Assembly: GCA_027382625.1 (NCBI GenBank)
Contig: JAJKFJ010005513.1
Span: 1 to 19,047, forward strand
Source: Tetmemena sp. SeJ-2015
Taxonomy: Eukaryota > Ciliophora > Spirotrichea > Sporadotrichida > Oxytrichidae
Reading direction: 5' to 3'
Length of the DNA: 19,047 bases
In this document: positions 1 through 19,047 of the stretch, in pieces
Layout: the number at the start of each line of letters is the position of its first letter
Position numbering within the stretch: position 1 is the first letter of the stretch
Program-made: the position numbers and the translations under genes
The notes under the pieces: generated by a model
Database searches by the model: none
What the model saw: the letters and a program-made list of their open reading frames with translations, nothing else
What the model was told of the DNA's origin: nothing

Positions 1-46
1 ATTTAATATGAAGTACAGTTACTTTTTACTGTTTTAATCCTTTCAG
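1..46 (+). other. 3' end of a spliceosomal intron
   Basis: AT-rich stretch ending in a branch-like TTTTAAT, a pyrimidine run and CAG, directly before an open frame. It resembles the 3' ends of the other introns here. Its 5' splice site lies outside the window, so an IES end cannot be excluded. Confidence 0.5.
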
Positions 47-2064
47 GACCAAAGCTGTCAAGGATCTCTCAAAGCCTAATCAGTAGCTATTTCTGGACAT
101 GTCTGAAGAGATGAGGCTTCAAAGAGTAAAGCTAGATGAATGTGAAGACCTGGTTAAAAAGAAAATTCCTGAGCACTAGAAGGCTCGGAGAGCTCTCCTA
201 GCTAGAGCGAAGATGCAGGTTTCAAGAACGTGTAACAAAGCAGAGTTGCTGAAGAATGAGATTGAGGTAGCTAAGGATACACAGAGGAAGCAGAGAAATA
301 TCCTCCACCATCACTACTTCTTGATTGAGTTCGCTCGAGAGGTTAGGAATTAGATTGAGAGCCCTCACTTCATTAATTATTTTTCATCTTCTCCTCCTTA
401 ATTAGAGAGGGATTATCTTAGAGCGTGCTTTATTTATTGAAACTTCACCTAGAACCTTTGCAACTTGTTCATCAAGGTCAAATGGCCTCAGTGCGAGGAC
501 TTATTGAGTGTTTTGTGTGATAGAGCAGTGTTCCAGGCTGACTATGGTAAATAGAAGGAGTCTTTACTGGAATGGGAGAATAATGCGATTGAGGAATAAG
601 AGAAGGAATAAGAAGAGGAGGGGAATCAAGATCAGAAACTGGCTTTAATAAGGAGTATCAATCCTATCACAAAGTAAACCTTATTATATCAGAGAATTTC
701 CACTAAGCTAAATTATCCTCTCATTAAGAGCTTATTTTGATTTAAATGCTGCTGCTAATGAGTATGTTGCTACTTGATAATTTCATAATAGCTTTGTTGT
801 CATGATGTATTCATTTGAGTTTATCAATCCTACTTACTATTTATTCTTTGCAGATTATATAACTTTAATTGTGTTAAACTTAGTGTCTCTAGAACAGATA
901 AAGATCGGTTTAAATGAGGTGAGCGCCTTGTTTCAGAAAGTGGAAGATGATAATTTGAAAAACTTCTAACTGCTCGTCTCCCTCACAGAAAAGAAGCTTT
1001 GATAAACACAACCCCAAGCACATTTATTTGATGTAAGCTTTTAAGACTGAAGGGAGTCCCTCCCAACAAGGAAGAAGTAATCGAGGAGGCTTTGAAGCAT
1101 AAGAAGAACACAGTCTAAAGAGTGAAGAGGTCCCTCTTAAGTAAACCTAGGTCAGCCTAACAAACTAGCACCTCTGCCCTAGATAACTAGTTTGCTAGCA
1201 TCCATCCCTTAGCTTTACTTTAAATGACATTTTTAGCATTAATTCCTCTCATACTTAATATTTGTTCATTAATTATTGAGTTTAGACATCAGTATATGGA
1301 ATTTATTGCTTAGCGGATATGTTGGACGGTCTGTCTTTAGAAAACATGAATGAGGAGCAGCTTTTCAGCAAGCGAAGACGGAACTACTCCAAAGATGAAC
1401 TCGCTGCCATGAGAAGCCCCTTTGGATAAAGAGTTAGCTTCTACAATGAAAATTAAAATGCTTTAATGGTTTCTGGTGAACTTAATTTTAGAAAACGTGG
1501 ACTAGAACAGACAGAAGAAGTATAGAGGAGACCCAGAGTTTACCTTCCAAAGACCTCGAGGTATGACTGGGTATGGCCCAAGCTAAGAGCAGCAGAATAG
1601 ACAAAATAGCAGGAACTTTGACTATGATAGATAGGGGACTTCGGGTGGGGGAAGAAGCTTTGGGCATCAGACGGCTAGGTATGAAGACGAAGTCTAGTAT
1701 GGGTATGACACACAGCAAAGCTACAGACAATCCCACAGAGTGAGAGGAGGCAGGGATCAACCCTCTCCGTTGGATAGAAGCCACAGTGGAAACAGGACTG
1801 TGGCAGTTGGTTTTATAGGGAGGAGAGATTCTCAGCTCTACGATCGATCTGGCACAAGATAGGAGGGCTACTATAGAGAGCCCACTTACAGGGATTAGAG
1901 ATAGACCACACAGAGAGACTTAAAAACTCAATCACTGTTTATTTTCCTCCCTTTTTTACTTATCAAGGAGTCAGAATCGTACTAGATATGAAAGACCCAC
2001 CTCACCTAACTTGACTTCCCCCTACAGTAGGGAACCTTCAAGAATCATGAGGAATTAACTTTGA
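47..2064 (+). CDS. Unrecognised protein, 3' part, basic helical region plus Arg/Tyr/Gln-rich tail (six IESs)
   Basis: The frame opens at 48 and, after six pointer-flanked deletions, runs for 523 codons to TGA at 2062-2064. The first 200 residues are charged and helical (many Lys, Glu, Arg). The middle carries an acidic EEQEKEQEEE stretch. Around 1330-1420 the protein reads ENMNEEQLFSKRRRNYSKDEL. YSKDELA has the YxxxxL spacing of eIF4E-binding motifs, but the last position is Ala instead of a bulky hydrophobic residue. The tail (1500-2060) is rich in R, Y, Q, G and S with RGG-like pieces such as RVRGGRD, suggesting RNA binding. The N-terminus is outside the window. A translation factor or mRNA-binding protein is possible but not established. 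Reading the first IES as coding would give a weak DDT-domain-like match that needs TGA=Trp, which I reject. Confidence 0.6.
367..447. other. IES, 75 bp, pointer ACTTCA
   Basis: ACTTCA at 367-372 and 442-447. Deleting one copy and the intervening DNA removes an in-frame TGA at 438-440 and keeps the frame (3n). Confidence 0.6.
731..882. other. IES, 148 bp, pointer CTTA
   Basis: CTTA at 731-734 and 879-882. The interior is AT-rich with several TGAs. Deletion joins two frames as KSLVSLEQIK. The short pointer makes the exact edges less sure than the presence of the element. Confidence 0.6.
994..1041. other. IES, 41 bp, pointer AAGCTTT
   Basis: The 7-bp repeat AAGCTTT occurs at 994-1000 and 1035-1041. 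Deletion removes the TGA at 1000-1002 and restores the frame as EKKLLRLKGV. Confidence 0.85.
1208..1314. other. IES, 101 bp, pointer CTTAGC
   Basis: CTTAGC at 1208-1213 and 1309-1314. The AT-rich insert shifts the frame. Deletion gives IHPLADMLDGLS. Confidence 0.85.
1448..1495. other. IES, 43 bp, pointer GAAAA
   Basis: GAAAA at 1448-1452 and 1491-1495. Deletion gives FYNENVDQNRQKK in frame. A 16-nt GT-AG intron at the 3' end would also fix the frame, but would leave AT-rich sequence as coding. Confidence 0.75.
1918..1962. other. IES, 40 bp, pointer ACTTA
   Basis: ACTTA at 1918-1922 and 1958-1962 flank a T-rich insert. Deletion gives TQRDLSRSQNRTRY. Confidence 0.8.
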
Positions 2065-2223
2065 CTGAGAGAGAAAACATTATAAGCTTATTTCATGAAT
2101 TGATGAATGACTATTTGATTGTATTAACTTAGATCTTTATATCTCTCCTTGTAGTCACTTATCGGTGAGATTAATCTCTGAGTTATAATAAATTTAGGTT
2201 TTTTCCTCATTATAATATTTGCA

Positions 2224-2555
2224 ATGGCTTAGAATCTGGACGTGCTGAACAATCACGTAGATCAGCAGCTCTCTCAACTGGAGACCTTCAAGCAGAACAG
2301 TCAGCGCCTGCAACTAGAGACCTTCAAGGTTCAAAGCTACCTGGCCATGTTCAACAACTGCGCAGACAGATGCCTCCTTCAGTACAAGGAGAGCGGCATC
2401 AAGACCCCCAAGGGAGGAGAGGTGCCCCAGGATGTGCAGTGCTTCACTAACTGCATCGAGAAGTCCCACACCGTCTCCAAGCTCGCCTTCCAATCTAAAA
2501 ATTGCTGTTAATCCTTGCTATAAATTATTATAACAACTTTAAAAAAAGTTAATGA
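2224..2555 (+). CDS. Small TIM (Tim8/9/10/13-type) mitochondrial chaperone (one IES)
   Basis: Small TIM proteins form hexameric chaperones in the mitochondrial intermembrane space and escort hydrophobic proteins to the inner or outer membrane. The 96-residue product starts M-A-Q, where Q is TAG, giving direct evidence of recoding. It shows the twin CX3C signature: CADRC near residue 46 and CFTNC near residue 73. The 22 residues between the pairs are longer than the usual 11-16. A helix with a repeated QLETFK precedes the first pair. The tail ends NCCQ and then TGA. That stop codon is assembled only when the 41-bp IES at 2507-2553 is removed. Which of the Tim8/9/10/13 subfamilies it belongs to is not clear from the sequence. 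It is convergent with the kinase gene. Confidence 0.88.
2275..2328 (+). repeat. Imperfect 18-bp direct repeat with 36-bp period in the TIM gene
   Basis: 2275-2292 and 2311-2328 match at 17 of 18 bases and both encode QLETFK. The period is 12 codons, so it looks like an in-frame tandem duplication. It is GC-rich and unlike the IESs. Confidence 0.75.
2507..2553. other. IES, 41 bp, pointer GTTAAT, completes a stop codon
   Basis: GTTAAT at 2507-2512 and 2548-2553. Without deletion the protein would run on through AT-rich DNA to a TGA at 2596. With deletion TGT-TAA is followed at once by TGA. Confidence 0.85.
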
Positions 2556-2813
2556 TGAGAGCTGGAGAGAAATAAACGAGGAGCGCTTTAGCAAATGACC
2601 ATTCTCAGACATTATCAAGATAGCGAAGAGAAAGTCATGTCGCAGAGTAAAAAGTGTGCCTCATTATCTATTTAAACTTTATTTGTAAAGCATATTATAA
2701 AATTGTCTATTTCTCATACATACTTAAACAACAACATCATCTAATCATCAAACCATAATAATTTCATCTCTTAGGAGGAGTATATCGTTTACTCTTTCAA
2801 TTTTTGTCTCTCA

Positions 2814-8045
<5,232 letters not shown>

Positions 8046-8243
8046 TTTTATAATTTCAAGCGAAGTCAACTGACTCTCTGCAAAAACTCAAATCGATTAA
8101 TAGTTTAACTAACTCTTTACCTTGCTCTCTTTCATTATATGTTCATGGCTGCATGCAAGTAGATTTTTTTTGAATGATCTGTGAGAGGTATATTGAGATC
8201 TTATGAAAGGAAATAAAGGATGTTTATGATCTTAAATGAGCAG

Positions 8244-11200
8244 TCACTGCTTAATGAAACTAGAGGGAGCTTGTGTAGTGTTCATCTTAAGCCTAATCTT
8301 CTCCTCCTTAGTAACATTAGGGAAACTCTTTATTCTCTCTACTGGAGTGGCTGATCCTTTAGGGATTGAAAGTTCCTCTACCTCCCAAATTTCCTCTGAG
8401 TATTCAAGGATTGTGCGATCTGAAGAGAACCTGCCAGAGCGAGCCACACAGTTTATGGAACGAGCAGTCCACTCTGAAGGCTCCAAGAAAGTCTAAGCTT
8501 ATCCTAAAGTGAATTTAAATTTAGAAGATAACTTACTGCTTGCGCTTGAGCTCTACATTCCCTAACCGAATTCAGCGGCTGAGTGGTGGGGCTTGCCCAA
8601 GATGTTCTTCACACTTAGATGTCCACTGCTTGAGTGAATCAATGTACAATAAATTCCGAATTGACATAGGTTATATAATCAACCCTGAGGCAAACTAATT
8701 CATTCGAACTGATCTCTCATGATTAATATCTTATAAGTTTACCATTTTGATTGTTCTTGGAGATTCCATTCTTAACATTGAAGTAAATCTTGTGAGCCTC
8801 GTCATTCGCCTGACAGTAGGAAAGCCAATCGAGTGCGATACCTTGAGTATCCTCAAAGTTTTCAATTGGTCTTATGACTCTCTCGCATACATACTGGAAC
8901 TCAGGGGCTTCTTTTTAGCTGAGGATGAAGTCAAATACTCTCCGCAGGTTAATGTCTATGTGGGAGGTACCAGAGGGTATGCGTTTCAGCTACAGTTAAT
9001 AATTAAGATAGTGTCATCGAGTATGAAGATGTGAAGTAATGAAGATTTTTAACTTACGAACTTCTGATAAGCATAGAGCTTGAACTTGTCAGAGCCAAAT
9101 ATGAAAATGCTTTGCTGACCAACTTCCCCCTCTATCTCCAGATTTGCTCCATCACGGCTGCCTACTATCAATCCTCCGTTCATAATGAATTTCATATTAG
9201 ACGTTCCACTGGGCTATAGCAAGATAATTAATGGGAGAGAACCTTACTTCAGTTCCAGGAGTGGGTATCTGTTGGCTGAGGTCACAAGCAGACACAAACA
9301 TTTCGCATGTTGATACTCCATAGTTTGGCTCGAAAATGATCTCACATTAAAATTATGCAAAACTTATTCATCTTACTGGTCTACTAAAAATATTATGATC
9401 TTCATGTAGGGATCAGCTTAAGGGTCGTTGTTAACAATCTCCATGACCTTGAAGATAAATTGAATAATGGCCTTGCCGTCCTTAGAGTGAGGAGGCGACC
9501 TGCCAGAGAAAATGAAAAGCGTTTTGCCAAGGCAAGAGCGTGGATTCTCCTTTACTTTTTAATACCTCATCAATATGTAGAACAAGAAGAGCACTTGTTT
9601 ATTATAAAGTTGTAGAACAAAAAATTAAAATGGTGACAAGTCAAAAATATTGATTTACTTGTCTCTTAGTAATTCCAATTGTTTTTGCCATAACATTGAT
9701 CATTAATTCCTCAGTTCCAGCTAGATAAGGCTCCACAAATTTACCCAAAATCTGTCTATCCTTAGGCCTCTTAAGAAAGTATTAAATGAGTCTCTTCTTG
9801 TTCTCTCAATATTCAAAATGAAATTAATACAATAAAAACACTATGAGTTCTCTTTCTTGATGTTTTAAAAATCTCTAATGAAGATTGAATCTTCCTTCCA
9901 ACCGTTAAGCTAACTAATAAGTGCCAGATTAATGAGCCACTCTTCATCTCCTCCTAATCGCTCAGTGATGAGTTTAGCAAGATTTGGATTTGCACACTAG
10001 ATCCAGCGCCTCTAGCTGACACCATTTGTAATTGAAATTATGCGCTAGGGGAACATTTGATCGAAGTCTCTGAAAATCAAAGTCTTCAAAAGTTAGGTAT
10101 GCTCCCAAGACACACCATTCACTTTGTGAGAAGCGAGGAAGCAAATAGTTGCCATAGAATATTATATCAAATTAATCGATAAATTCCCATCTTGATGTTT
10201 GCTTTGTTATCTCCAGAATACTAGAAGATGCTCATTCGCTAAAGTCTAGCCTGATCATCAGGGTACTCTCGCTTTATCCTTTCTAGGAAGAAGAAGTTGA
10301 GTTCATTTATGATCTCCAAATGGCGCGGAAGCAACTTATGAACGATGTGGACTGGCCACTTCTCCTTGAATTCAACAGTGGTTGAGTGCGATGTATAAGA
10401 GAAGGTGTTGCATACAGTTAGCCAAGCTTGGTGCATGCTCAAATCCTCCTCATCTATAAGTACTCTCAGTAGTTCTATAATAGCAATTGCAGGGTGTGCA
10501 TCATTAAGCTGAATAGCTATCTTCTTAGGAAATATCTCGAAGTTGTTCTTGTGAGTTTTCTTAAAGCGTCTTATGATGTCTTTAATGGTAGCAGCGCAGA
10601 AGAAGTATTGCTGCTTAATCAAAGCCTCTTGCATATCATCAGTCATAGTCTTGTCGTCTGATTTGTGATAGAGGACACTTGTGATTCTCTCTGCTCTTTG
10701 CCTAGTTGAGACCAGATTGATGTAGTCATCATCGCTCTAGCAGTGATAGGCCTTGTTAGATTCCTCGAAAGAGGGTTAAGCACTCCACAGTCTCAGATTG
10801 TTAGTGTTGAAAGTGTTGTAGCCAGGTACTGGGGTGTCGTAGGCCATGGCTTTCACTATCTCTCCCTTAATCCACTGTGACTTCACAATCTTAAGGCCTG
10901 GTGAGGAAGGGTGCTCCACTTCCACCTTCTTAACTTCTCCATAGAACTGCACTGGGTAAACCACGTCGTATCTCTGAATTTCCCAGGGCACCTTCTTTGA
11001 GTAGCCAAAGTTAGGCAGCTCTATCTATTTCCCAAACTTCTCAATCAAAATAACATGATCTCTAATGATCACTATCATATACTACTCAATTATGTGCTGC
11101 TTGAAATTTCCATAGTGATATCTTATTCCATATCCCCAAGCAGGTAACTCTAGTGTTGACATCGAATCTAGGAAAGAGGCAGCTAATCTACCGAGGCCTC

Positions 11201-12411
11201 CAGTTCCAATTCCAATATCACATTCATATTCGTAGAGGTCCTCTAGTTTGTAGCCCAAGTCCATCAAAGAATCCCTGTACTGATCTACTAAGTTCAAGTT
11301 GAATATTCAGAATAAGAATGATAAACTCTTAATTAAACAGTTGACGAGAATGTTTTGCATCATCCTGCCTTAGAGATACTCTGCAGAGAGATAGTAGACT
11401 CTCTTAGGATCGTGGTCCTAAAAGTAATTTTGAGCCTTAAAGTATATTCTCTTACTGTGTAGTGCTAGTTTGTATCATTGAAGCACTCGATGAGTCTATC
11501 TCTGAGTGAGCTAGCAACTGCTTGCGAAAGGTGGCTCTTGTCGAAATTGAATCTACTCTTGACCACAGTATACTCAATGTGATTCACAATCTGCTTTTGA
11601 ATGAACCAACGCTCATGCCCCAAGTAGCTGCTCATCAATGCCCATAGCTTAGTATTGAACTGCTCATTTTCAAAAAGCTTATATAACACTTTAATAATCT
11701 ATTGATGATTATTTTCATGCCCAGTTTTGTATCTGAATTCAGGCTAAGGATAAAAGATAAAGACAAAAAGTGCAAAGTTTACTCTGTATAGTTAATTTTC
11801 GGATTTCCCAGGAGTTTCTTCGTTTCCATTCTAGCCAGTTTCTCTGCTTCTATCGTTTGATCTCTGACTGACCACTGACATCCTCCTCCCTCTATCAATT
11901 CCACAATCATTCAACATTGATAATTGTTTTGACTTTGAATATCAAAAGCCTTGAGATTGTCGAATGAGTCTTTCTGAGTGAGCTTTAGGTTCTGTCTCCT
12001 TGAAAGATTCTCATTATAGGAATGCGTTTTATGAAGCAAAGAGTGGTTATTTTGCTCGTCCCCACTCTCCTCCTTATCATGTTCCTTTGAGCATTCTACT
12101 ACTGCGCTGACATTCTGCTAACTCACTGCAGGATGAGGCAAATCTATATAGCTCGATATTTAATGGAAGTAGGATATTTACTCTTCTAGGGCTCAACAGA
12201 TAAAGGGTGCGCATCTGAACTCTTAAAAGTATGCTCTATAAAGATGTCTTAAATAATGTTTCTCATCTTTGGAAAATCTCAAATCATAATGATATTTTGA
12301 TTTATCAAAAACCTTTTTTGAAGGAAAAGGAAAGTGTTGAAATGTAAAGCCTTATAGATTGTATATCTTACTCTTTAGAAGTTGTTGCTCCTTTTTATTG
12401 GTATCTTCCAT
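8244..12411 (-). CDS. Glycogen/starch phosphorylase, divergent (11 IESs, 4 introns)
   Basis: The family releases glucose-1-phosphate from alpha-1,4-glucan with PLP. The conceptual product is about 1161 residues; the family is usually about 840-900. Residues 1-200 are an extension of low complexity that includes RRMSVV, an RRxS phosphosite-like motif. Conserved blocks follow in order: [94 protein letters not shown], the PLP-lysine block [13 protein letters not shown] (near residue 905), and [18 protein letters not shown]. Oddities: the usual RIHEYKRQ is TIGITKRQ, the ENYRVSLAEK block is altered, and about 55 Ser/Gly-rich residues are inserted before EPSEW. Start ATG at 12411, stop TGA at 8244-8246. 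It may be a specialised or weakly active paralog. Confidence 0.93.
8504..8536 (-). other. Intron, 33 nt
   Basis: GTAAGT...CACTTTAG. Splicing joins SSSASR to [11 protein letters not shown] in frame. No compatible direct repeat. Confidence 0.75.
8637..8682. other. IES, 40 bp, pointer TTGATT (coding strand)
   Basis: Copies at 8637-8642 and 8677-8682. Deletion gives [15 protein letters not shown] and shifts out of a frame that ends in TGA. Confidence 0.8.
8709..8742 (-). other. Intron, 34 nt
   Basis: GTAAAC...ATTAATCATGAGAGATCAG removes an in-frame TGA and joins KNNQN to VRMNQFAS. No repeat gives the right frame. Confidence 0.65.
8990..9057 (-). other. Intron, 68 nt
   Basis: GTAAGT...TTATTAACTGTAG after LYAYQKF. 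Splicing resumes at [17 protein letters not shown]. Several TGAs lie in the other frames. Confidence 0.75.
9214..9247 (-). other. Intron, 34 nt, in the PLP-site region
   Basis: GTAAGG...ATTAATTATCTTGCTATAG between PGTE and PSGTSNMKF, exactly within the conserved GTEASGTGNMKF block. No pointer-like repeat, so this is a clear spliceosomal intron. Confidence 0.9.
9336..9401. other. IES, 59 bp, pointer AGATCAT (coding strand)
   Basis: The 7-bp copies lie at 9336-9342 and 9395-9401. Deletion restores [13 protein letters not shown], matching the phosphorylase VIFLENYRVS region. Confidence 0.9.
9593..9662. other. IES, 64 bp, pointer ACAAGT (coding strand)
   Basis: Copies at 9593-9598 and 9657-9662. 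Deletion removes a TGA right after TKRQ and gives [15 protein letters not shown]. Confidence 0.87.
9800..9853. other. IES, 47 bp, pointer AGAGAAC (coding strand)
   Basis: The 7-bp copies lie at 9800-9806 and 9847-9853. Deletion restores NIKKENKKRLIQYFLK. Confidence 0.9.
10152..10190. other. IES, 35 bp, pointer ATGG (coding strand)
   Basis: Copies at 10152-10155 and 10187-10190. Deletion removes a TGA and gives [19 protein letters not shown], the conserved NMAHLCIVGSHAVNGV block. Confidence 0.88.
11040..11090. other. IES, 45 bp, pointer ATTGAG (coding strand)
   Basis: Copies at 11040-11045 and 11085-11090. The insert is 3n with no TGA, but adds 15 residues that homologs lack. Deletion gives FKQHIIEKFGKQIELP. 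Confidence 0.82.
11297..11344. other. IES, 42 bp, pointer TCAACT (coding strand)
   Basis: Copies at 11297-11302 and 11339-11344. The insert has an in-frame TGA and no possible GT-AG solution. Deletion gives [17 protein letters not shown], matching the family exactly in length. Confidence 0.95.
11424..11461. other. IES, 35 bp, pointer TAC (coding strand)
   Basis: Copies at 11424-11426 and 11459-11461. Deletion gives [19 protein letters not shown], close to the family TQQHYYEKDPKR. An internal 20-nt GT-AG intron also keeps frame but adds four residues. Confidence 0.72.
11738..11800. other. Possible IES, 60 bp, pointer GAA (coding strand)
   Basis: AT-rich stretch in the N-terminal extension, flanked by GAA. 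It is 3n and free of TGA, so only its composition and hydrophobic translation suggest removal. Confidence 0.42.
11893..11945. other. IES, 47 bp, pointer TTGATA (coding strand)
   Basis: Copies at 11893-11898 and 11940-11945. Deletion removes a TGA and gives [15 protein letters not shown]. Confidence 0.85.
12180..12224. other. IES, 39 bp, pointer AAGAGT (coding strand)
   Basis: Copies at 12180-12185 and 12219-12224. It is 3n with an in-frame TGA. Deletion gives AYFQEQISYFHQIS. Confidence 0.78.
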
Positions 12412-12739
12412 TATAGATGATGATGGATGATGGATTAAGTAATTATTTATTCCTAATTAATTTTGGAAAATTATACGGGAATGATCTTCTTTTTATTTAC
12501 TTTGAGTGATTCCTCATTTCACTTCACGAGAGTGATATTTAGAACAAAGTAGAACTAACTAGTTTATCAAATCCAAAATGTCAAGCTATAAAATCAAAAA
12601 GTGTCACTTGAAAGGTTCAAATTGCTTTTAAAAGGCGAGGATAACTTCAAATCAGCAGCTATTTGTTAAGACACTATCTCTCTTATAAGTAAATATATAT
12701 TAAAATGTTGGCAGAGTAGTAATTTGAAAGCTCAAAAGC
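12412..12739. other. Intergenic spacer, 328 bp
   Basis: Lies between the start of the phosphorylase gene and the stop of the next minus-strand gene, so it should hold the phosphorylase 5' region. It is AT-rich with a short GATGATGG-type repeat at 12417-12433. I see no gene, telomeric repeat or RNA gene. Confidence 0.7.
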
Positions 12740-14367
12740 TCATCTGATAATGAGGACTTAGCAGTTCGAAAAGTCAATAGTTGCAGTTGCTTAGAGCTTC
12801 TCATAGACTAAAAAGAGGTTCTTAAAGTTCATAGTCATCAAAGTCATCTCATCTTCCACTCTCTGGCGGTCTCCTTTCTCACTCCTTTTCTTGTACTTGC
12901 GCTTCAAATCATCCAAACAGTTTTATTGTGAAGGCAAATCTAGGAAACACCTTAATAACATAACTTCTGATAGATGATTGATTGATTGTAATTAAAAATC
13001 AGAGTGTCTCTTTGACGCCTCTTCCTGGAGCATCTTGATGAAAGAGAACTTGAAAGAGTAGTCAGGAGGGCTGAACGGGTTGCTGCTCCTCTGAATTTCC
13101 CTTAAACATGTAGCAGCATAGACATTTAATAAATTACTTACTCCCTCACCATGTGCTTGTACTGTTGAGGCTTCCTCATCAGAATGGAGTGGATCTTGTA
13201 GACTAGCTCGTTCCTTAGACTCAAGTAGAGAGTATCTTGTTGCTCGCGCATCTCCTTGAACATACGGTAGAGTTTGTCAGTTCGCTGCACGACCAGTCTT
13301 GTCAGCAGCACCTCCAAATCTCCAAAGCTTTGAACAAGTCCCTTCTCGATACTCACTTCTATCTATGACTAATCACAAGAGCATATATGCAGATTATAAA
13401 GATCTCTTTGAAGCCAATATCCTCCTCAACCATTTCTCGAACGTGCTTTCTGTCTGAAGGAATCAACTTCGTGTACTGCTAGTCAGTCAGCTTCTCAAAC
13501 TTCTTGGGAAGAGTCAGAACTTGGACACCAGGTAGTTAGGTTTTGATCTTCTAAACAAGCTCAAGAAGTTGTCTCTTCAAAAGCTTGTCAACTTTGTAGT
13601 CAGGTCTAGGCTTGAACTCTGGCTACTCAAAGTTTGTGGAAGGAGAGGAACAGTTTTCAAACTAAGACTGAGAGCAAGTTACTGGATCAGGAAGTGAGGG
13701 AACCTAGCCGTTTAGACTAGTCTTAGTAAGATGCTGGCGCAATTCGTGGGCATCAATAGTCAAGTTTGAAATTGCTTGCTAGATCGAGCACTGGTTTGTA
13801 TCCTGTAAGCTTGGGCCCTCAAAGTTTGTTCCATGCTAAAGGTCATTGATCTGCTAAAAAAAGAAGGATGCCAAAAATTATTTAATGCTACCCAAGTTTC
13901 ACCTCTACAGCTGACTCTCGAGACTCAACCTCAAACTTAGGTTGAGCTTCAAGAGTCGTCAGTTCTTCCATAGGTAGATCACCACTATCGTGTTGATCTT
14001 AAATTGTCACCTATTGTAGAGCCTCAACTCTCGCATAGATTTGATGTTCGTTGCTGATTGCCTCATATTCCAGAGTATTCATAAGCTGTTGATTGGTCAA
14101 AGCAGTCATAGCTTAAAGAGCGTGAGAGGTTGTAGCAGCAAACTCAATTGAGCTTTACCTCGCATCGCTCTCTCTAGTATCTCTCATAGCATCTTGTGAA
14201 AGGTCTTAGGATTGGATAAATTTAACATTTTTAAAATACCTAGGTATATTTTGGAGATGCTTACAAGTATCCTCTACATCAACCTCAAGCAGATTTTGGC
14301 TGGCTTATTAGCCACTCAAATGTCCGGTGGGCTGAAAGTTCTCATTCTAAGTATTCTCAAAGTTCAT
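12740..14367 (-). CDS. Unrecognised Q-rich protein, about 498 residues (1-2 IESs, 1-2 introns)
   Basis: ATG at 14367 and TGA at 12740-12742, with no in-frame TGA after removal of an intron and one or two IESs. Residues 1-300 are Gln/Asn/Thr-rich and probably disordered (for example NLLEVDVEDTCKHLQN). The next part looks folded and helical: QLPGVQVLTLPKKFEKL, then SDRKHVREMVEEDIGF and VLLTRLVVQRTDKLYRMFKEM. Near the end comes a basic DDLKRKYKKRSEKGD segment. I recognise no family. An AT-rich in-frame stretch at about 12935-13005 may be an additional undetected IES. The gene sits between the phosphorylase and the gene ending at 14544, all on the same strand. Confidence 0.75.
13098..13146. other. 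IES of 44 bp with pointer AGGGA, or a 41-nt intron (13101-13141)
   Basis: AGGGA (coding strand) at 13098-13102 and 13142-13146, but GTAAGT...TTTAAG also fits splice rules. Both keep the frame and differ by one Glu. Either is possible. Confidence 0.6.
13361..13405. other. IES, 41 bp, pointer AGAT (coding strand)
   Basis: Copies at 13361-13364 and 13402-13405. Deletion removes a TGA and gives DIGFKEIEVSIEKGL. Confidence 0.77.
13854..13902 (-). other. Intron, 49 nt
   Basis: GTGAAA...TTTTTTTAG. Splicing joins ESAVE to QINDLQHG and avoids a TGA. The long T run before AG is typical of an acceptor. Confidence 0.75.
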
Positions 14368-14543
14368 CGCAAAGGAAACTCAAAAGTATAAAGGTCAAAG
14401 TTAGTAGTTGTGTAAGTAAAGTGATTTTATTATAATTGCTTTCATTCAAAGTTACTATTTAAAGAATGAGCTCAATTCAAATCAAATTAAGTCAACATCT
14501 ATTTTGGCGATAACAAATATTGATAATCAAGTCATCTATGAAA

Positions 14544-16203
14544 TCAGTCTCTCATGTGCTGGAACCAAATTGAGTCTCTATAATGAAGAGTCTTCACCAT
14601 CTCTCGCTCCTTCTCAAGTAAAAAGTCTATGTCGAACTATTTGAAGTCTATAAACTCAGATTCCATCACAAAATAATTTCTGTTAAGTGATACACCATTT
14701 TTCCACAAGAGCCTTCTCGATGAGTTTTTGATGAGCTGACATGAAGGCATCCCTATCTCGGGAGGGGAGTCTCTCCACATCTTCAAGTATAGATCTCACT
14801 CCCTGCTCAAGCAAGCATCTTTTCATCTTGACCATGGTGTGAGAGAGGAAAGTCAAAGCAGTGTGCATCCTTTTGTAGAGAACTTGATAGAAGCAGTTAA
14901 TCAAAGATATGAAGTGCTCAAGTGAGGGCAGCTCGTAGAAAGCCGATACAGGTGCCCTAGACACAACTTTCACACCATCCATGGCTAGGTAGTTTTTCTA
15001 AGTCTGCTATTACTCATACTTCACATAAGAGAACTCTTCGATGTACTCGTGCAGCTGAGTGAGAGGAGTGATGGCTGCTTCTGGCAGGAGATCTAGGTAC
15101 TCTGATAGGGACTCTATGCAGGAGTTGAAGGCAGTCTTGAAGTCTTGACATAGGTCATCGATGAGCGTGTTCAAGCAGTCAGCCTCAAAGTACTAGTCAG
15201 AGATCTTTGAGATCTTCAAAACACACTCGCGAAGAGAAGACCTGCTCAACTGTGTAAAGTCAAAGACCACTAAACCACATTTAATAGACAAGAAAATGGA
15301 CAACTTGAAAATACTTTTACTCTCTCAGTAGCTTGCTCTGCAGTATCTTGATTCAGAACGAAGAAAGCGATCTGTTGCTCTTTGCTCATCCTTTGGAAGC
15401 ACCCTTCAAGAGTCTCGAGGTATCTCAATCTGACTTTGGCTTTCAATCTATCCAAAGCTCTCTTCTTTTCGAGGTTGCATGACTACAGAAACTGGAGGGA
15501 AAGCTACACTATGGTATCCACATAGGACTCAAAGTCAGCCACTCGATCGAAGTTGAATCTAGATAGCTGGTCTTCAAAAGCTCGCAGGAGTTCTTCAATC
15601 AGGGGCACTTTCAAAAAACAAGTAGGGAAAGAGCTACAAAAGAATGAAATAGGGAAAGGGAATATTAATGAGTTATAATAAGCTAGAGTCACTGCTGCTT
15701 TCTTTTTCAGACCCTCCAGAGGTGAGTCTGGCAAGATTATTATCATGGAAGAGAGAGAAGTAAGTCTCCTTGAAGATTCTGTTGAGCTCAATCAGCAGGT
15801 TTTATTCAGTCTTGCCTATGCACAACCCAAATAGTTATAAAGAATTATAGCCATAAAGAAAAATCACAGTTTCAAATAAGTTCTGCGGTCCAAAGTATCT
15901 CTCAAGAACTTCTGGAGGGATCTCAGATGGATCAAAGTCTCTTTCGTCAAGAGTCTCATCTTAATCCCCTTTCTGAAGTCGATTTATTTGCGCAAATTAG
16001 TTTGTGGAAGTATCAATCATCTCAGTGTCATCATAGGATTAGTTCAGCGCTTGCTTAAAAGAAGCTTGAGCAGTAGTACTCGCTCTCATAAGAGGGTGTG
16101 TGCTTTTGGTCTAGGTGGCAGGAGCTGCATTTCTTGACAGAGAGGTGTCTATCATCTCAAAGTCTTCATCATCATCAGCATACTTCTGGTTGAATCGTGG
16201 CAT
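14544..16203 (-). CDS. Helical protein of unknown family, 482 residues (four IESs)
   Basis: ATG at 16203, TGA at 14544-14546. The acidic N-terminus contains EMIDTS twice (DDDEDFEMIDTS and DDTEMIDTS). FEMI after an acidic run fits the loose LIR (Atg8-binding) pattern. From about residue 90 the protein is predicted almost fully helical, for example LIEELLRAFEDQLSRFNF, KKRALDRLKAKVRLRYL and SILEDVERLPSRDRDAF. Such all-helical architecture recalls vesicle-tethering subunits (exocyst/GARP), but I see no diagnostic motif, so no name is given. It is cut by four IESs and no clear intron. It lies downstream of the gene starting at 17845 on the same strand, with a 204-bp spacer. Confidence 0.75.
14685..14709. 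other. Possible IES, 22 bp, pointer CTT (coding strand)
   Basis: A frame change is needed near the C-terminus. CTT copies at 14685-14687 and 14707-14709 give IEKALNRNYFVMESE. The short pointer makes the edges uncertain. Confidence 0.5.
15269..15321. other. IES, 50 bp, pointer AGT (coding strand)
   Basis: Copies at 15269-15271 and 15319-15321. Deletion gives QATERVVFDFTQLS. A GT-AG intron at the same place does not give the right frame. Confidence 0.62.
15608..15705. other. IES, 94 bp, pointer AAAG (coding strand)
   Basis: Copies at 15608-15611 and 15702-15705. Deletion avoids a TGA and gives GGSEKVPLIEELLRAF. Confidence 0.62.
15828..15878. other. IES, 45 bp, pointer TATTTG (coding strand)
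   Basis: Copies at 15828-15833 and 15873-15878. 3n and without TGA. Supported by the 6-bp repeat, the AT-rich content and the hydrophobic off-character translation. Confidence 0.7.
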
Positions 16204-16407
16204 CTAAAACTCAAAGTGAAAGAATCAATTAATTTAAAGTCCAAATTATAGTTTGCCTTTTCTAATTAACTCATTAAATATTTGATATCAATGTTTAAAC
16301 ATGCAAAATATCATCCTTAATTAGATAATTTAAATAAATTAAGACCTCTACTATTCTTACTGGAAGAATAGATTTCTCTCATCTCTTGACAGTAGAACTT
16401 CTCCTCT
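16204..16407. other. Intergenic spacer, 204 bp
   Basis: AT-rich DNA between two minus-strand genes. No further feature seen. Confidence 0.6.
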
Positions 16408-17845
16408 TCAGAGATTATTCTATTCGAATTTGGTGAAGTCGATGTATTTCTTTCCAGCCTCAACTCTGTGGAAGAAGCAGTTGCCCTGCATCATGAAATC
16501 TATGTCAGTGAGTTTGTATTTCTCATGGCCCAGGTAGTTATCTTCCTTCCTCCTCTCTCCGATATCTCTTTCGAATCTGAGCCAGTGCGCTTCATATTAA
16601 TTCTTCAAGTTCTTTTCATAATCCTCCAGTGACTCTACTCCCTCTACCTGAGGGAGCTTTGGCTTTTACTAGCCCCTGATGTTTAAGGCCTCTATGTCAT
16701 TAAATCTACCCTTGGCTCTCAAAGCATCTCTAAGTTTATTGATATAGCAAACGGGTCGGTCGAAAGCGTCTAGTACCACAAATTTTTTCTTAGTCCAGTA
16801 GCCCACATCGAAACGCAAGATCATTTGCTTGGAAATCTTTAAATTTGCTTGTCGACGCTCCTAGTCAAATAACTTCACTTCCCTTACTCCTCTGACTCTA
16901 CTCGCTGCTATGGAATTACTCGTGATCAAAGAGGGAATCTTCTTGTTTTCCTCATAAAGACAATCGCAAAATGAGGCATGAATGAATAATGAACTAATCA
17001 TCTTGAATATCATAGACTACTATTTGCTTAGGCATGTGTTGGGAGAGCCCTCTGAAATCTGTAAAGCCAATTATCAAGAACGAAGTCTTCTCATCCTTGT
17101 GAGAGTGCTCTATATTTTTGAACTTGCCTGAGTGGTAATTACTCTGCTTCTCTTTCCCAATAGTAAGAAACTTCAAGGAGGGGTCATTCATGATCTTGTT
17201 CCTCAGATTATTGACTTTATTTCTTAAGTCTGCTGTCATGTGCTGTTCAAACAAGCTCTTGGATAAGGGTAGTGCAGGGTCTGCAAGTGCATCTACTAGT
17301 TTATCATAGAAGGTGGCGAAGAAGTCTTGTTCTTGCTTGAGCGATACTTCTCTAAGTCTTGTATTGAACATGAGATGACTGCCATAGGGTGAGTACAGCT
17401 TGAGTTTGTAGTTTACATTATGGATAAAGAAGGAGTTGGACTCAGGTGGGGCTGCCTAGAAGTAGTGGAATTTCCCATCGAATGACAGCAGATCATCTGG
17501 CTTTGAAGACCGAAGGTGGATCCTTTGATTATAGCCCATCTGCTTATCTTCCATCACAGATGCTGCTACCTCTGCCTTACTATTCCTTTCAAACAATAGA
17601 ATAATAAAATTACTAAATTTGTTATTATAAAGTTCATCTGACTTTGGGAGAGTTATTTGCTTTTTGTTTTAGAGAGGACTTGTAACTTGGAACTGAGAGA
17701 GTCTCTCGTGGATAAAGGGCTGGAATTAAGAATTTTGAACTCCCTTCCTGCCAAAGAGCCCAAAAAATGAACGCTTGGGAATGTCCTTGTTCTGAAGAAG
17801 AACCCCACTGGCTTAAACTTTTAATTAGTTGCAAATTTACTTCAT
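16408..17845 (-). CDS. Unrecognised protein, 448 residues, possibly mitochondrial (two IESs)
   Basis: ATG at 17845 and TGA at 16408-16410. The upstream frame is open only through TAA/TAG=Gln codons. The N-terminus (about 40 residues) is basic, poor in acidic residues and ends KRSFFGLFGRKG, resembling a mitochondrial presequence. The body is soluble and mixed, with charged C-terminal stretches (GERRKEDNYLGHEKYKLTDIDF). A shorter start at 17554 exists, but the open frame, removal of an AT-rich 45-bp IES and the basic leader favour 17845. I know no family for it. Its divergent neighbour, 131 bp away, encodes a tiny hydrophobic protein that could also be mitochondrial; this is inference only. Confidence 0.72.
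16952..17001. other. IES, 46 bp, pointer ATGA (coding strand)
   Basis: Copies at 16952-16955 and 16998-17001. Deletion avoids a TGA and gives VYDIQDEENKKIPSL. Confidence 0.77.
17588..17636. other. IES, 45 bp, pointer TGAA (coding strand)
   Basis: Copies at 17588-17591 and 17633-17636. The insert is nearly pure AT, 3n and TGA-free. Deletion gives LPKSDERNSKAEV. Confidence 0.68.
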
Positions 17846-17976
17846 TACACACGAACAAGTGAATTTATATAATTGTATTCGAATTATTATTGCCACTAAA
17901 AATATAGTAAAACTGTTATCATAAACTGAGATAGTTGGAAAATAAGAGTGGATCAATAATAATTGAGAATAAAAAC
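17846..17976. promoter_or_regulatory. Divergent intergenic region, 131 bp
   Basis: Separates the divergent genes starting at 17845 (-) and 17977 (+). Very AT-rich. Promoter function is inferred only from position; no specific motif is recognised. Confidence 0.35.
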
Positions 17977-18153
17977 ATGGTTTTGTAGCAAGTATTTTGG
18001 CTGGGAGTGGGCGCAGGACTTACATCGGTGCCTATATATTCTAGTATGCACCAGTGGTTCAAGAGAGAGCAGGATTAAATCCAAAAGGAGTTCAAGCAGC
18101 AGAGGCAGCTAGTCTTCCTCATCAAGTCAAAGCAATTCTTTTAGAACCCTTGA
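17977..18153 (+). CDS. Small protein, 58 residues, one hydrophobic segment
   Basis: ATG at 17977, TGA at 18151-18153, uninterrupted, with two TAG codons and one TAA read as Gln. Residues 6-26 (VFWLGVGAGLTSVPIY) could span a membrane once. The rest is basic and Gln-rich (KREQDQIQKEFKQQRQ) and probably helical. The size and layout resemble small accessory subunits of respiratory complexes, but there is no identifiable motif. Coding is supported by the recoded frame, a plausible start preceded by AAAAAC and clean ends. Confidence 0.55.
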
Positions 18154-18573
18154 TACACAAACTTAGAGACGCACATATTTATAAGAGTTTGATAAATTCT
18201 TAACCATATCGGCATGGGAATATTTTTTAGACCTTAATTCTTTTATAATTTGTGAACTCTCTCTTCAATATTATAATAATCATCTTTTATAATTAAATTG
18301 AGTCAGTCATCATCCAGTCACAATTTAATTTATCTTAAGAATCGTAATTTAAGATAGTCATCTCCTCTTAACTTGTTACTTATTCGTAATAATGCATAAT
18401 ATTATATCGGGCGGGTGAGTGACTCTTACAGTAATTGTATTATAATTGGATGGAGTTGGTATTAAAGGAGGGCAAATCTTTGTAGATTTAAATTATTTAT
18501 ATAATCAAACAGCAAGATTTCTTCTGCACAAGAAACTAAAAACCATTAACTTGAAAGAGAGAGAGATAGTATA
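18154..18573. other. Intergenic spacer, 420 bp, with an 8-bp inverted repeat
   Basis: AT-rich DNA upstream of the aminotransferase. TATCTTAA at 18331-18338 and TTAAGATA at 18349-18356 form a perfect inverted repeat around a 10-nt loop. A purine run (GAAAGAGAGAGAGA) at 18553-18566 lies just before the start codon. No gene seen. Confidence 0.6.
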
Positions 18574-19047
18574 ATGTAAAACCTTGCAAGAACATTCCCT
18601 AAGAAAGCCAGAGATCAACTCCATATATGGGCTGAATTCACCCAGCTATCTCAGAAGTACGGCTCAGTCAACTTTAATGCAAAAAAATATTAACGCACAT
18701 ACACAATTTAGAGTTGTATATAACTTGTGCCATGGCACACCTGGATTGGATGCACCGCAGTTCCTAGTTGAGAATTTGTACAAAGCCAGCAGAGAGGGTT
18801 TCAATCAGTATACATTGTTCCAGGGACATCCACTTCTAAGGGAGAAGCTATCAGAGTTCTTCTCACCCACCTTCAAACTGGGCCTCAACGGAAGAGCGAT
18901 AGATGCTAATAGAGAAATCTTAGTGACCAACGGAGCAAGCGAAGCCATTTTCTGTGCAGTTCATAATTTGGTTGAATAGGGAGATGAGGTTATCAGCAAG
19001 TATTCAATAATCAATTAGATAAATTATCATGTTCGAGCCCTACTATA
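18574..19047 (+). CDS. PLP aminotransferase, kynurenine/cysteine-conjugate type, 5' part (two IESs)
   Basis: Class I/II (fold type I) aminotransferases use PLP; this branch acts on kynurenine, glutamine or cysteine conjugates. The start M-Q-N-L at 18574 (second codon TAA) leads to WAEFTQLSQKYGSVNLCHGT, matching the family WVEFTKLA...VVNLGQGFPD. Further matches are GFNQYTLFQGHPLLREKL (family NQYTRGFGHPSL), ANREILVTNGASEAIF (PLP-phosphate loop region) and GDEVIMFEPYY. The frame works only after two precise IES deletions at 18670 and 18990. The PLP lysine lies beyond the window, so activity cannot be judged. Confidence 0.88.
18670..18726. other. IES, 52 bp, pointer AACTT
   Basis: Copies at 18670-18674 and 18722-18726. 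Deletion joins KYGSVNLCHGTPGLD, exactly at the conserved VVNLGQG motif. Confidence 0.95.
18990..19029. other. IES, 34 bp, pointer TTATCA
   Basis: Copies at 18990-18995 and 19024-19029. Deletion gives EQGDEVIMFEPYY, matching the family GDEVIIFEPFYD. Confidence 0.95.

Follow-up and report, generated by a model that had tools for sequence, protein, structure and literature searches.

Short repeat-flanked, AT-rich segments in a 19-kb contig are predicted to be eliminated sequences of a spirotrich germline

Why are the genes of a single contig broken, at short intervals, by AT-rich stretches that lie between short direct repeats? We pursued this question in contig C371 (19,047 bp), the whole of which was analyzed and is hereafter the window, from an assembly of 146 Mb in 5,213 contigs. 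Thirty-six such segments were recovered, 35 of them inside genes and one intergenic (2078–2207). The window is very probably micronuclear DNA of a spirotrich ciliate, in which the 36 segments are predicted internal eliminated sequences (IESs), cut from the DNA at macronucleus formation with one copy of each repeat, or pointer, being kept. An earlier note on this DNA had proposed elimination from a ciliate micronucleus, a proposal now supported by repeat-bounded segments that are not GT-AG, by their drifting interiors, and by TGA as sole stop, C4A4 contig ends, and DDE_3 transposases. We regard the case as a further instance of an established phenomenon.

Coding blocks were separated from non-coding segments using a Viterbi model that drew on codon usage and haplotype differences and was blind to splice sites and repeats, while exact boundaries came from a second model, in which GT-AG termini or direct repeats were allowed, followed by hand refinement. 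The haplotypes were identified by searching the whole window, as two query pieces, against its own assembly, which returned the locus in three copies, i.e., two further haplotypes. Specifically, C2968 has 96% identity to the window and covers it in two pieces, and the third haplotype comprises C1354 and C1636 (spanning 7999–19047 and 1–2325, respectively) at 92–94% identity, reaching at most 97% in the last piece. The same search also returned kinase-like matches and one other partial match.

The pointer segments are 20–148 bp long (median 45) and 75.9% AT (coding sequence, approximately 56.5%), and number 1.9 per kb of window, or approximately 2.5 per kb of coding sequence; their pointers are 3–8 bp long (median 5). 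The earlier note had counted 39 AT-rich segments of 22–148 bp (median 43, about two per kb, with repeats of 3–8 bp), and while their kind and repeats stand, the count and sizes are revised to those given here; some of the 39 may be among the 14 GT-AG introns described below. Three of our calls are weak, namely two segments with 3-bp pointers (5332 and 5976) and one 19-bp intron. Final boundaries were picked with repeats and frame in view. A candidate at 3076–3116 in the kinase gene was discarded for want of a repeat, and 3085–3125 (ACCA) is in the final list. Likewise, boundaries at 732–840 (TTATT) were superseded by 731–878 (CTTA), preferred because a 1-bp indel at 862–864 in both other haplotypes would otherwise be exonic. 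With 731–878, the partial gene at this end of the window is open in C1636 too, where it had 10 internal stops with 732–840. The segments are as follows.

367–441, plus strand: pointer ACTTCA, 75 bp
731–878, plus strand: pointer CTTA, 148 bp; boundaries chosen to keep the frame of the window and of C1636; the C2968 frame is still broken here
994–1034, plus strand: pointer AAGCTTT, 41 bp
1208–1308, plus strand: pointer CTTAGC, 101 bp
1448–1490, plus strand: pointer GAAAA, 43 bp
1918–1957, plus strand: pointer ACTTA, 40 bp
2078–2207, no strand: pointer CATTATAA, 130 bp, intergenic
2507–2547, plus strand: pointer GTTAAT, 41 bp; excision puts a TGA in frame
3085–3125, minus strand: pointer ACCA, 41 bp
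3518–3537, minus strand: pointer AAATA, 20 bp
3828–3899, minus strand: pointer AGTTAT, 72 bp
4402–4451, minus strand: pointer CTGTC, 50 bp
4718–4763, minus strand: pointer TATTCA, 46 bp
5008–5040, minus strand: pointer GTAT, 33 bp
5144–5175, minus strand: pointer AGGTT, 32 bp
5332–5354, minus strand: pointer TAA, 23 bp, weak
5976–6028, minus strand: pointer AAA, 53 bp, weak
8637–8676, minus strand: pointer AATCAA, 40 bp
8720–8747, minus strand: pointer TGATT, 28 bp
9336–9394, minus strand: pointer ATGATCT, 59 bp, phosphorylase
9593–9656, minus strand: pointer ACTTGT, 64 bp; CTTGT in the third haplotype
9800–9846, minus strand: pointer GTTCTCT, 47 bp
10152–10186, minus strand: pointer CCAT, 35 bp
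11040–11084, minus strand: pointer CTCAAT, 45 bp, in frame, from homology
11297–11338, minus strand: pointer AGTTGA, 42 bp
11666–11710, minus strand: pointer ATTTTCA, 45 bp
11893–11939, minus strand: pointer TATCAA, 47 bp
12936–12995, minus strand: pointer AAATC, 60 bp
13361–13401, minus strand: pointer ATCT, 41 bp
14212–14250, minus strand: pointer TTGGA, 39 bp
14667–14703, minus strand: pointer CACAA, 37 bp
15632–15680, minus strand: pointer AGCTA, 49 bp
15828–15872, minus strand: pointer CAAATA, 45 bp
17588–17632, minus strand: pointer TTCA, 45 bp; TCA in the third haplotype
18670–18721, plus strand: pointer AACTT, 52 bp, aminotransferase
18990–19023, plus strand: pointer TTATCA, 34 bp, aminotransferase

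Repeats of 3–5 bp are frequent by chance in AT-rich DNA, and the segments could instead be decayed coding sequence, errors of assembly, or accidental repeats in a contig rich in pseudogenes. Because the second model rewards repeats, and the final boundaries had made use of repeats and frame, chance was assessed on the blind segments of the Viterbi model, a list that also has 36 members but differs from the final 36 and includes introns. Frame-compatible repeats of at least 5 bp were present in 18 of these 36 within ±6 bp, as opposed to 8.4% under a null in which the left and right ends of different segments were paired (p=6e-8), and the same test gave p=0.00085 at ±4 bp and p=0.00019 at ±12 bp. 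Moreover, the repeats are conserved: across haplotypes, both repeat copies differed in 10 of 675 cells (1.5%) and the interiors in 275 of 2,863 (9.6%; p=7e-16), the repeats having been picked in one haplotype before comparison with the others. The 12-bp flanks differed in 46 of 1,486 cells (3.1%), and interior bases adjoining the repeats in 56 of 641 (35 segments). None of the indels of at least 8 bp among the haplotypes spans an entire segment, and every covering haplotype keeps each segment. Many coding indels in C2968 would also be accommodated by decay or error, but that explanation is contradicted by the excess of repeats in the blind segments, and by other haplotypes that lack no whole segment, together with conserved repeats, restored frames, and intact conserved domains; we regard it as extremely unlikely.

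The restored frames concern nine gene models.

48–2064, plus strand: partial gene, outside the family-library scan
2224–2555, plus strand: small gene with two Cys-X3-Cys motifs, no Pfam match
2814–7406, minus strand: Ser/Thr kinase with C-terminal KA1 domain (PF00069, 4.4e-82; KA1, 9.1e-10)
8244–12411, minus strand: glycogen phosphorylase (phosphorylase Pfam match, 3.7e-206)
12740–14367, minus strand: gene, no Pfam match
14544–16203, minus strand: gene, no Pfam match
16408–17845, minus strand: gene, no Pfam match
17977–18153, plus strand: 58-residue gene, segment-free, no Pfam match
18574–19047, plus strand: class I/II aminotransferase, truncated by the contig end (Pfam match, 1.4e-9)

Once 35 segments and 13 introns had been taken out (the models include neither the intergenic segment at 2078–2207 nor an intron at 7794–7925), all nine were without internal stop under genetic code table 6. 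The code in which TAA and TAG encode Gln and TGA is the sole stop fits all nine models, eight of which reach a TGA. All six models that run from ATG to TGA were divisible by three, and the partial gene and the kinase, for which the start position is not fixed, were read in whichever frame stays open. The earlier note gave coding lengths in multiples of three, with no internal TGA, for seven complete genes and the partial gene; here open frames extend to all nine models and divisibility to those six. Without removal, there were 25 internal stops in the kinase and 23 in the phosphorylase, and none in 2224–2555 and 17977–18153. That the segments break the genes, and that excision with one repeat copy kept restores conserved blocks, had both been claimed before and are borne out, the joined kinase, phosphorylase, and aminotransferase proteins all having Pfam matches. 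In the case of the phosphorylase, the in-frame CTCAAT segment was recognized because an alignment with yeast glycogen phosphorylase, which extended over residues 186–921 and 1074–1110 of 1,152, showed an excess stretch, and an in-frame GT-AG intron was found by inspecting the protein.

Frames are also restored in the third haplotype. Removal of the mapped segments there left the partial gene (in C1636), 12740–14367, and 14544–16203 open; for the phosphorylase and 16408–17845, the frame was open when the cut was placed at the shorter repeat common to both ends (CTTGT and TCA, respectively). Of the segment-bearing models with a stop in this haplotype, all five have an open frame; so does the truncated aminotransferase, and 17977–18153 is segment-free. 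Two of four coding indels in C1354 are not multiples of three, both of them at pointer edges, and neither of the two in C1636 is of this type. In C2968, 2224–2555, 16408–17845, 17977–18153, and the truncated aminotransferase were open.

Separate from the pointer segments were 14 introns with GT-AG ends (median length 40 bp, 71.3% AT), predicted to leave from RNA.

5798–5816, minus strand: GT-AG intron, 19 bp, doubtful
6963–6997, minus strand: GT-AG intron, kinase HRD motif
7288–7319, minus strand: GT-AG intron, kinase
7794–7925, minus strand: GT-AG intron upstream of the kinase model, outside all nine models
8990–9057, minus strand: GT-AG intron
9214–9247, minus strand: GT-AG intron
11418–11455, minus strand: GT-AG intron
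11744–11782, minus strand: GT-AG intron, in frame
12144–12181, minus strand: GT-AG intron
12248–12371, minus strand: GT-AG intron
13101–13141, minus strand: GT-AG intron
13854–13902, minus strand: GT-AG intron
15250–15320, minus strand: GT-AG intron
16951–17020, minus strand: GT-AG intron

Since these 14 are similarly short and AT-rich, and some GT-AG candidates also sit in short repeats, it could be argued that all segments are ordinary spliceosomal introns, with the repeats as echoes of splice sites. However, GT-AG ends were obtained for none of the 36 pointer segments, whichever equivalent register was used, and we assign this explanation next to no probability.

Elsewhere in the assembly, an exact presence/absence pair was observed. 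C2595 and C4099, two haplotypes of a related kinase with 98.5–98.7% identity, differ by precisely one TCTTATT plus 24 bp (31 bp), and the shorter haplotype retains one copy of TCTTATT (at approximately 1830). In addition, an alpha/beta hydrolase-like gene of C298 is interrupted by a CATAA-flanked segment of 37 bp, and in C1815 (95–97% identity to C298) the same CATAA segment is 6.5 kb longer, the extra sequence having a C4A4-bearing end and a TTA duplication.

C1815:29965–36471: the 6.5-kb element

The hydrolase-like gene could bear such a 6.5-kb insertion provided that excision removes the entire segment. Contigs C982, C1161, and C3843 begin with approximately 120 bp of the C4A4-bearing end of this element. 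DDE_3 transposase matches in the assembly comprised 921 candidates, of which 150 were scored, and all 150 were over the cut-off. We infer that removal takes place in DNA, and during macronuclear development: the 36 pointer segments would be excised while the macronucleus forms, one repeat copy would stay, and a Tc1/mariner-type transposase may make the cuts, as reviewed for Oxytricha (PMC7599177, in excerpt).

The ends of some contigs bear on whether the segments leave DNA at all. Nine contigs start with exactly CCCCAAAACCCCAAAACCCC, and the reverse complement of this repeat forms the very end of five others, which makes at least 14 capped contigs in a search for the exact 20-bp repeat, with contig ends located for part of the matches. 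None of the capped contigs has the exact 20-bp C4A4 repeat at both ends. In C770 the telomere stands where sequence runs on internally in C1991; de novo formation of chromosome ends is therefore likely. We considered that the segments might stay in somatic DNA and be removed from RNA through a repeat-using route that is not GT-AG, the capped contigs then being ordinary somatic chromosomes. Pointer segments do persist in capped contigs, and four of the five capped contigs searched against the assembly match other contigs from base 19–21 onward, over spans that differ in size by 0–23 bases, the 6.5-kb element aside; C4966 matched itself only, no second copy being found in the assembly. Nevertheless, with 14 capped ends confirmed among 5,213 contigs and none exact at both ends, the assembly is mostly not somatic. 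Moreover, one segment contains the 6.5-kb element, and we know of no repeat-using, non-GT-AG RNA route in ciliates. Removal from RNA alone is accordingly, to our judgment, very unlikely.

Several results weigh against elimination from germline DNA. The whole-window search of the assembly returned no copy lacking the segments and no somatic copy of these genes. In C2968, five of the nine models keep internal stops (6–27) after removal, and of the 14 coding indels in this haplotype, 13 have lengths not divisible by three; these frame-breaking indels look like sequence errors or decay. Fourteen of 62 repeat pairs were not identical in the other haplotype, the remaining 48 being identical. The repeat excess was weaker in a ±16-bp window, with repeats of at least 6 bp in 12 of 36 segments versus 13.4%, or 7 of 29 versus 13.1% without haplotype data, and one repeat of 19 in the ±16-bp test was a product of overlapping windows. 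ANT occurs in 16 of the 36 pointers as compared with 12.6 ± 2.7 in random words, which is not clearly above. DDE_3 is a broad family, present in three of 14 control genomes. Finally, capped contigs hold segments of the same kind: the TMEM231 gene of the capped contig C4966 contains two, with pointers ACTTCAA (41 bp) and CAAATTTA (40 bp), and among 25 blind segments drawn from nine capped contigs, 10 had repeats of at least 5 bp versus 8.6% (p=0.002).

C4966:1–3000: segments at 445 and 715; first gene TMEM231 (PF10149, 4.1e-43 after removal)

The corresponding count at 13 other loci was 13 of 42 versus 8.3% (p=0.023), and at ±8 bp the values were 12 of 25 versus 15.1% (p=0.012) for capped contigs and 16 of 42 versus 13.6% (p=1.1e-5) for the other loci. 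A comparison of capped contigs with other loci by gene models without haplotype data was set aside as too unspecific (41 pointer picks in nine capped contigs and 61 at 15 loci). Segments in capped contigs may reflect capping before excision, joins made during assembly between somatic telomere reads and germline reads, or retention in somatic chromosomes. It is possible, though rather unlikely, that chromosome cutting and the addition of somatic 20-bp telomeres precede IES removal, or that some segments never leave DNA. All contigs of known size exceed 10 kb, from which it follows that ordinary nanochromosomes are probably not in the assembly. Partially processed precursors occur in development (PMC2394655, in excerpt), and excerpts of PMC2394655, PMC7599177, and PMC6937825 describe no long capped molecules with IESs, although cases may be in print.

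Germline elimination being favored, the lineage has also to be weighed. The code with TGA as sole stop, the 20-bp C4A4 contig ends, and the DDE_3 transposases match a spirotrich germline. The best 120 protein matches listed for the phosphorylase had 41–48% identity, Protocruzia and Euplotes among them; with listed matches at or below 48%, the species stands apart from those represented in the collection searched, and it is not firmly placed. This leaves some room for the germline of a non-spirotrich ciliate, for example one with TA-bounded segments, but TA is absent from 22 of the 36 pointers, and 20-bp C4A4 ends make up approximately half of Strombidium cf. sulcatum telomeres (PMC10901763, in excerpt). 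We hold a non-spirotrich source to be quite improbable.

With respect to the remaining content of the window, Pfam scanning of joined proteins left five of the nine scanned without a match (48–2064 being outside the scan), and Rfam, tRNA, and tandem repeat scans of the window gave no match. The product of 2224–2555, which had no match in the Pfam scan, presumably resembles small Tim proteins. Gln-rich coding blocks lie 5′ of the kinase at 7407–8046, their sole join to it being a doubtful 210-bp intron (7396–7605). Within 14544–16203, a 93-bp coding stretch (16051–16143) is absent in frame from C1354, and a flanking repeat is not clear. At 17926–17937, between two genes, both other haplotypes are approximately 55 bp longer than the window.

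If the prediction holds, the known spirotrich germlines gain a species for which none of the best 120 phosphorylase matches listed exceeds 48% identity. As a single assembly contains three haplotypes and at least one exact presence/absence pair, IES gain and loss become traceable inside one genome, and the capped contigs offer a route to asking whether telomere addition precedes or follows excision. For genome scans, gene callers that allow only introns would misread such contigs.

Compared with known systems, the segments are akin to the non-scrambled IESs of Oxytricha, Halteria, and Strombidium. Judging from excerpts of PMC10901763, pointers in these three are diverse, mostly AT-rich, and mostly shorter than 10 bp, and Tc1/mariner-family elements are present in the germline assembly of Halteria and, as fragments, in that of Strombidium; short segments, diverse pointers below 10 bp, such elements, and C4A4 telomeres are the shared features. 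In contrast, the window median of 45 bp is shorter than the median eliminated sequence in Oxytricha (73 bp), Halteria (104 bp), and Strombidium cf. sulcatum (180 bp), and approximately 2.5 segments per kb of coding sequence is an intermediate density, the median number of macronuclear-destined sequences per kb being 4.2–4.3 in Oxytricha and Halteria and 1.45 in Strombidium (PMC10901763, in excerpt). Unlike scrambled Oxytricha genes, each of the nine models in the window keeps to a single strand and reads in order. In spirotrichs, the coincidence of introns with pointers underlies a model of intron-IES conversion (PMC9797194 and PMC1805493, both in excerpt), and here, too, the two kinds of segment occur in the same genes and are alike in size and AT content, while GT-AG termini tell the introns from the pointer segments. 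The C4A4-bearing end of the C1815 element, its 3-bp duplication, and the many DDE_3 genes of the assembly recall telomere-bearing elements (TBEs) and other Tc1/mariner elements of spirotrich germlines; we did not class it as a TBE because its other end is not an inverted copy, its frames having had no family search. Finally, the prevalence of pointers without TA sets the window apart from the TA-bounded IESs of Paramecium and Euplotes.

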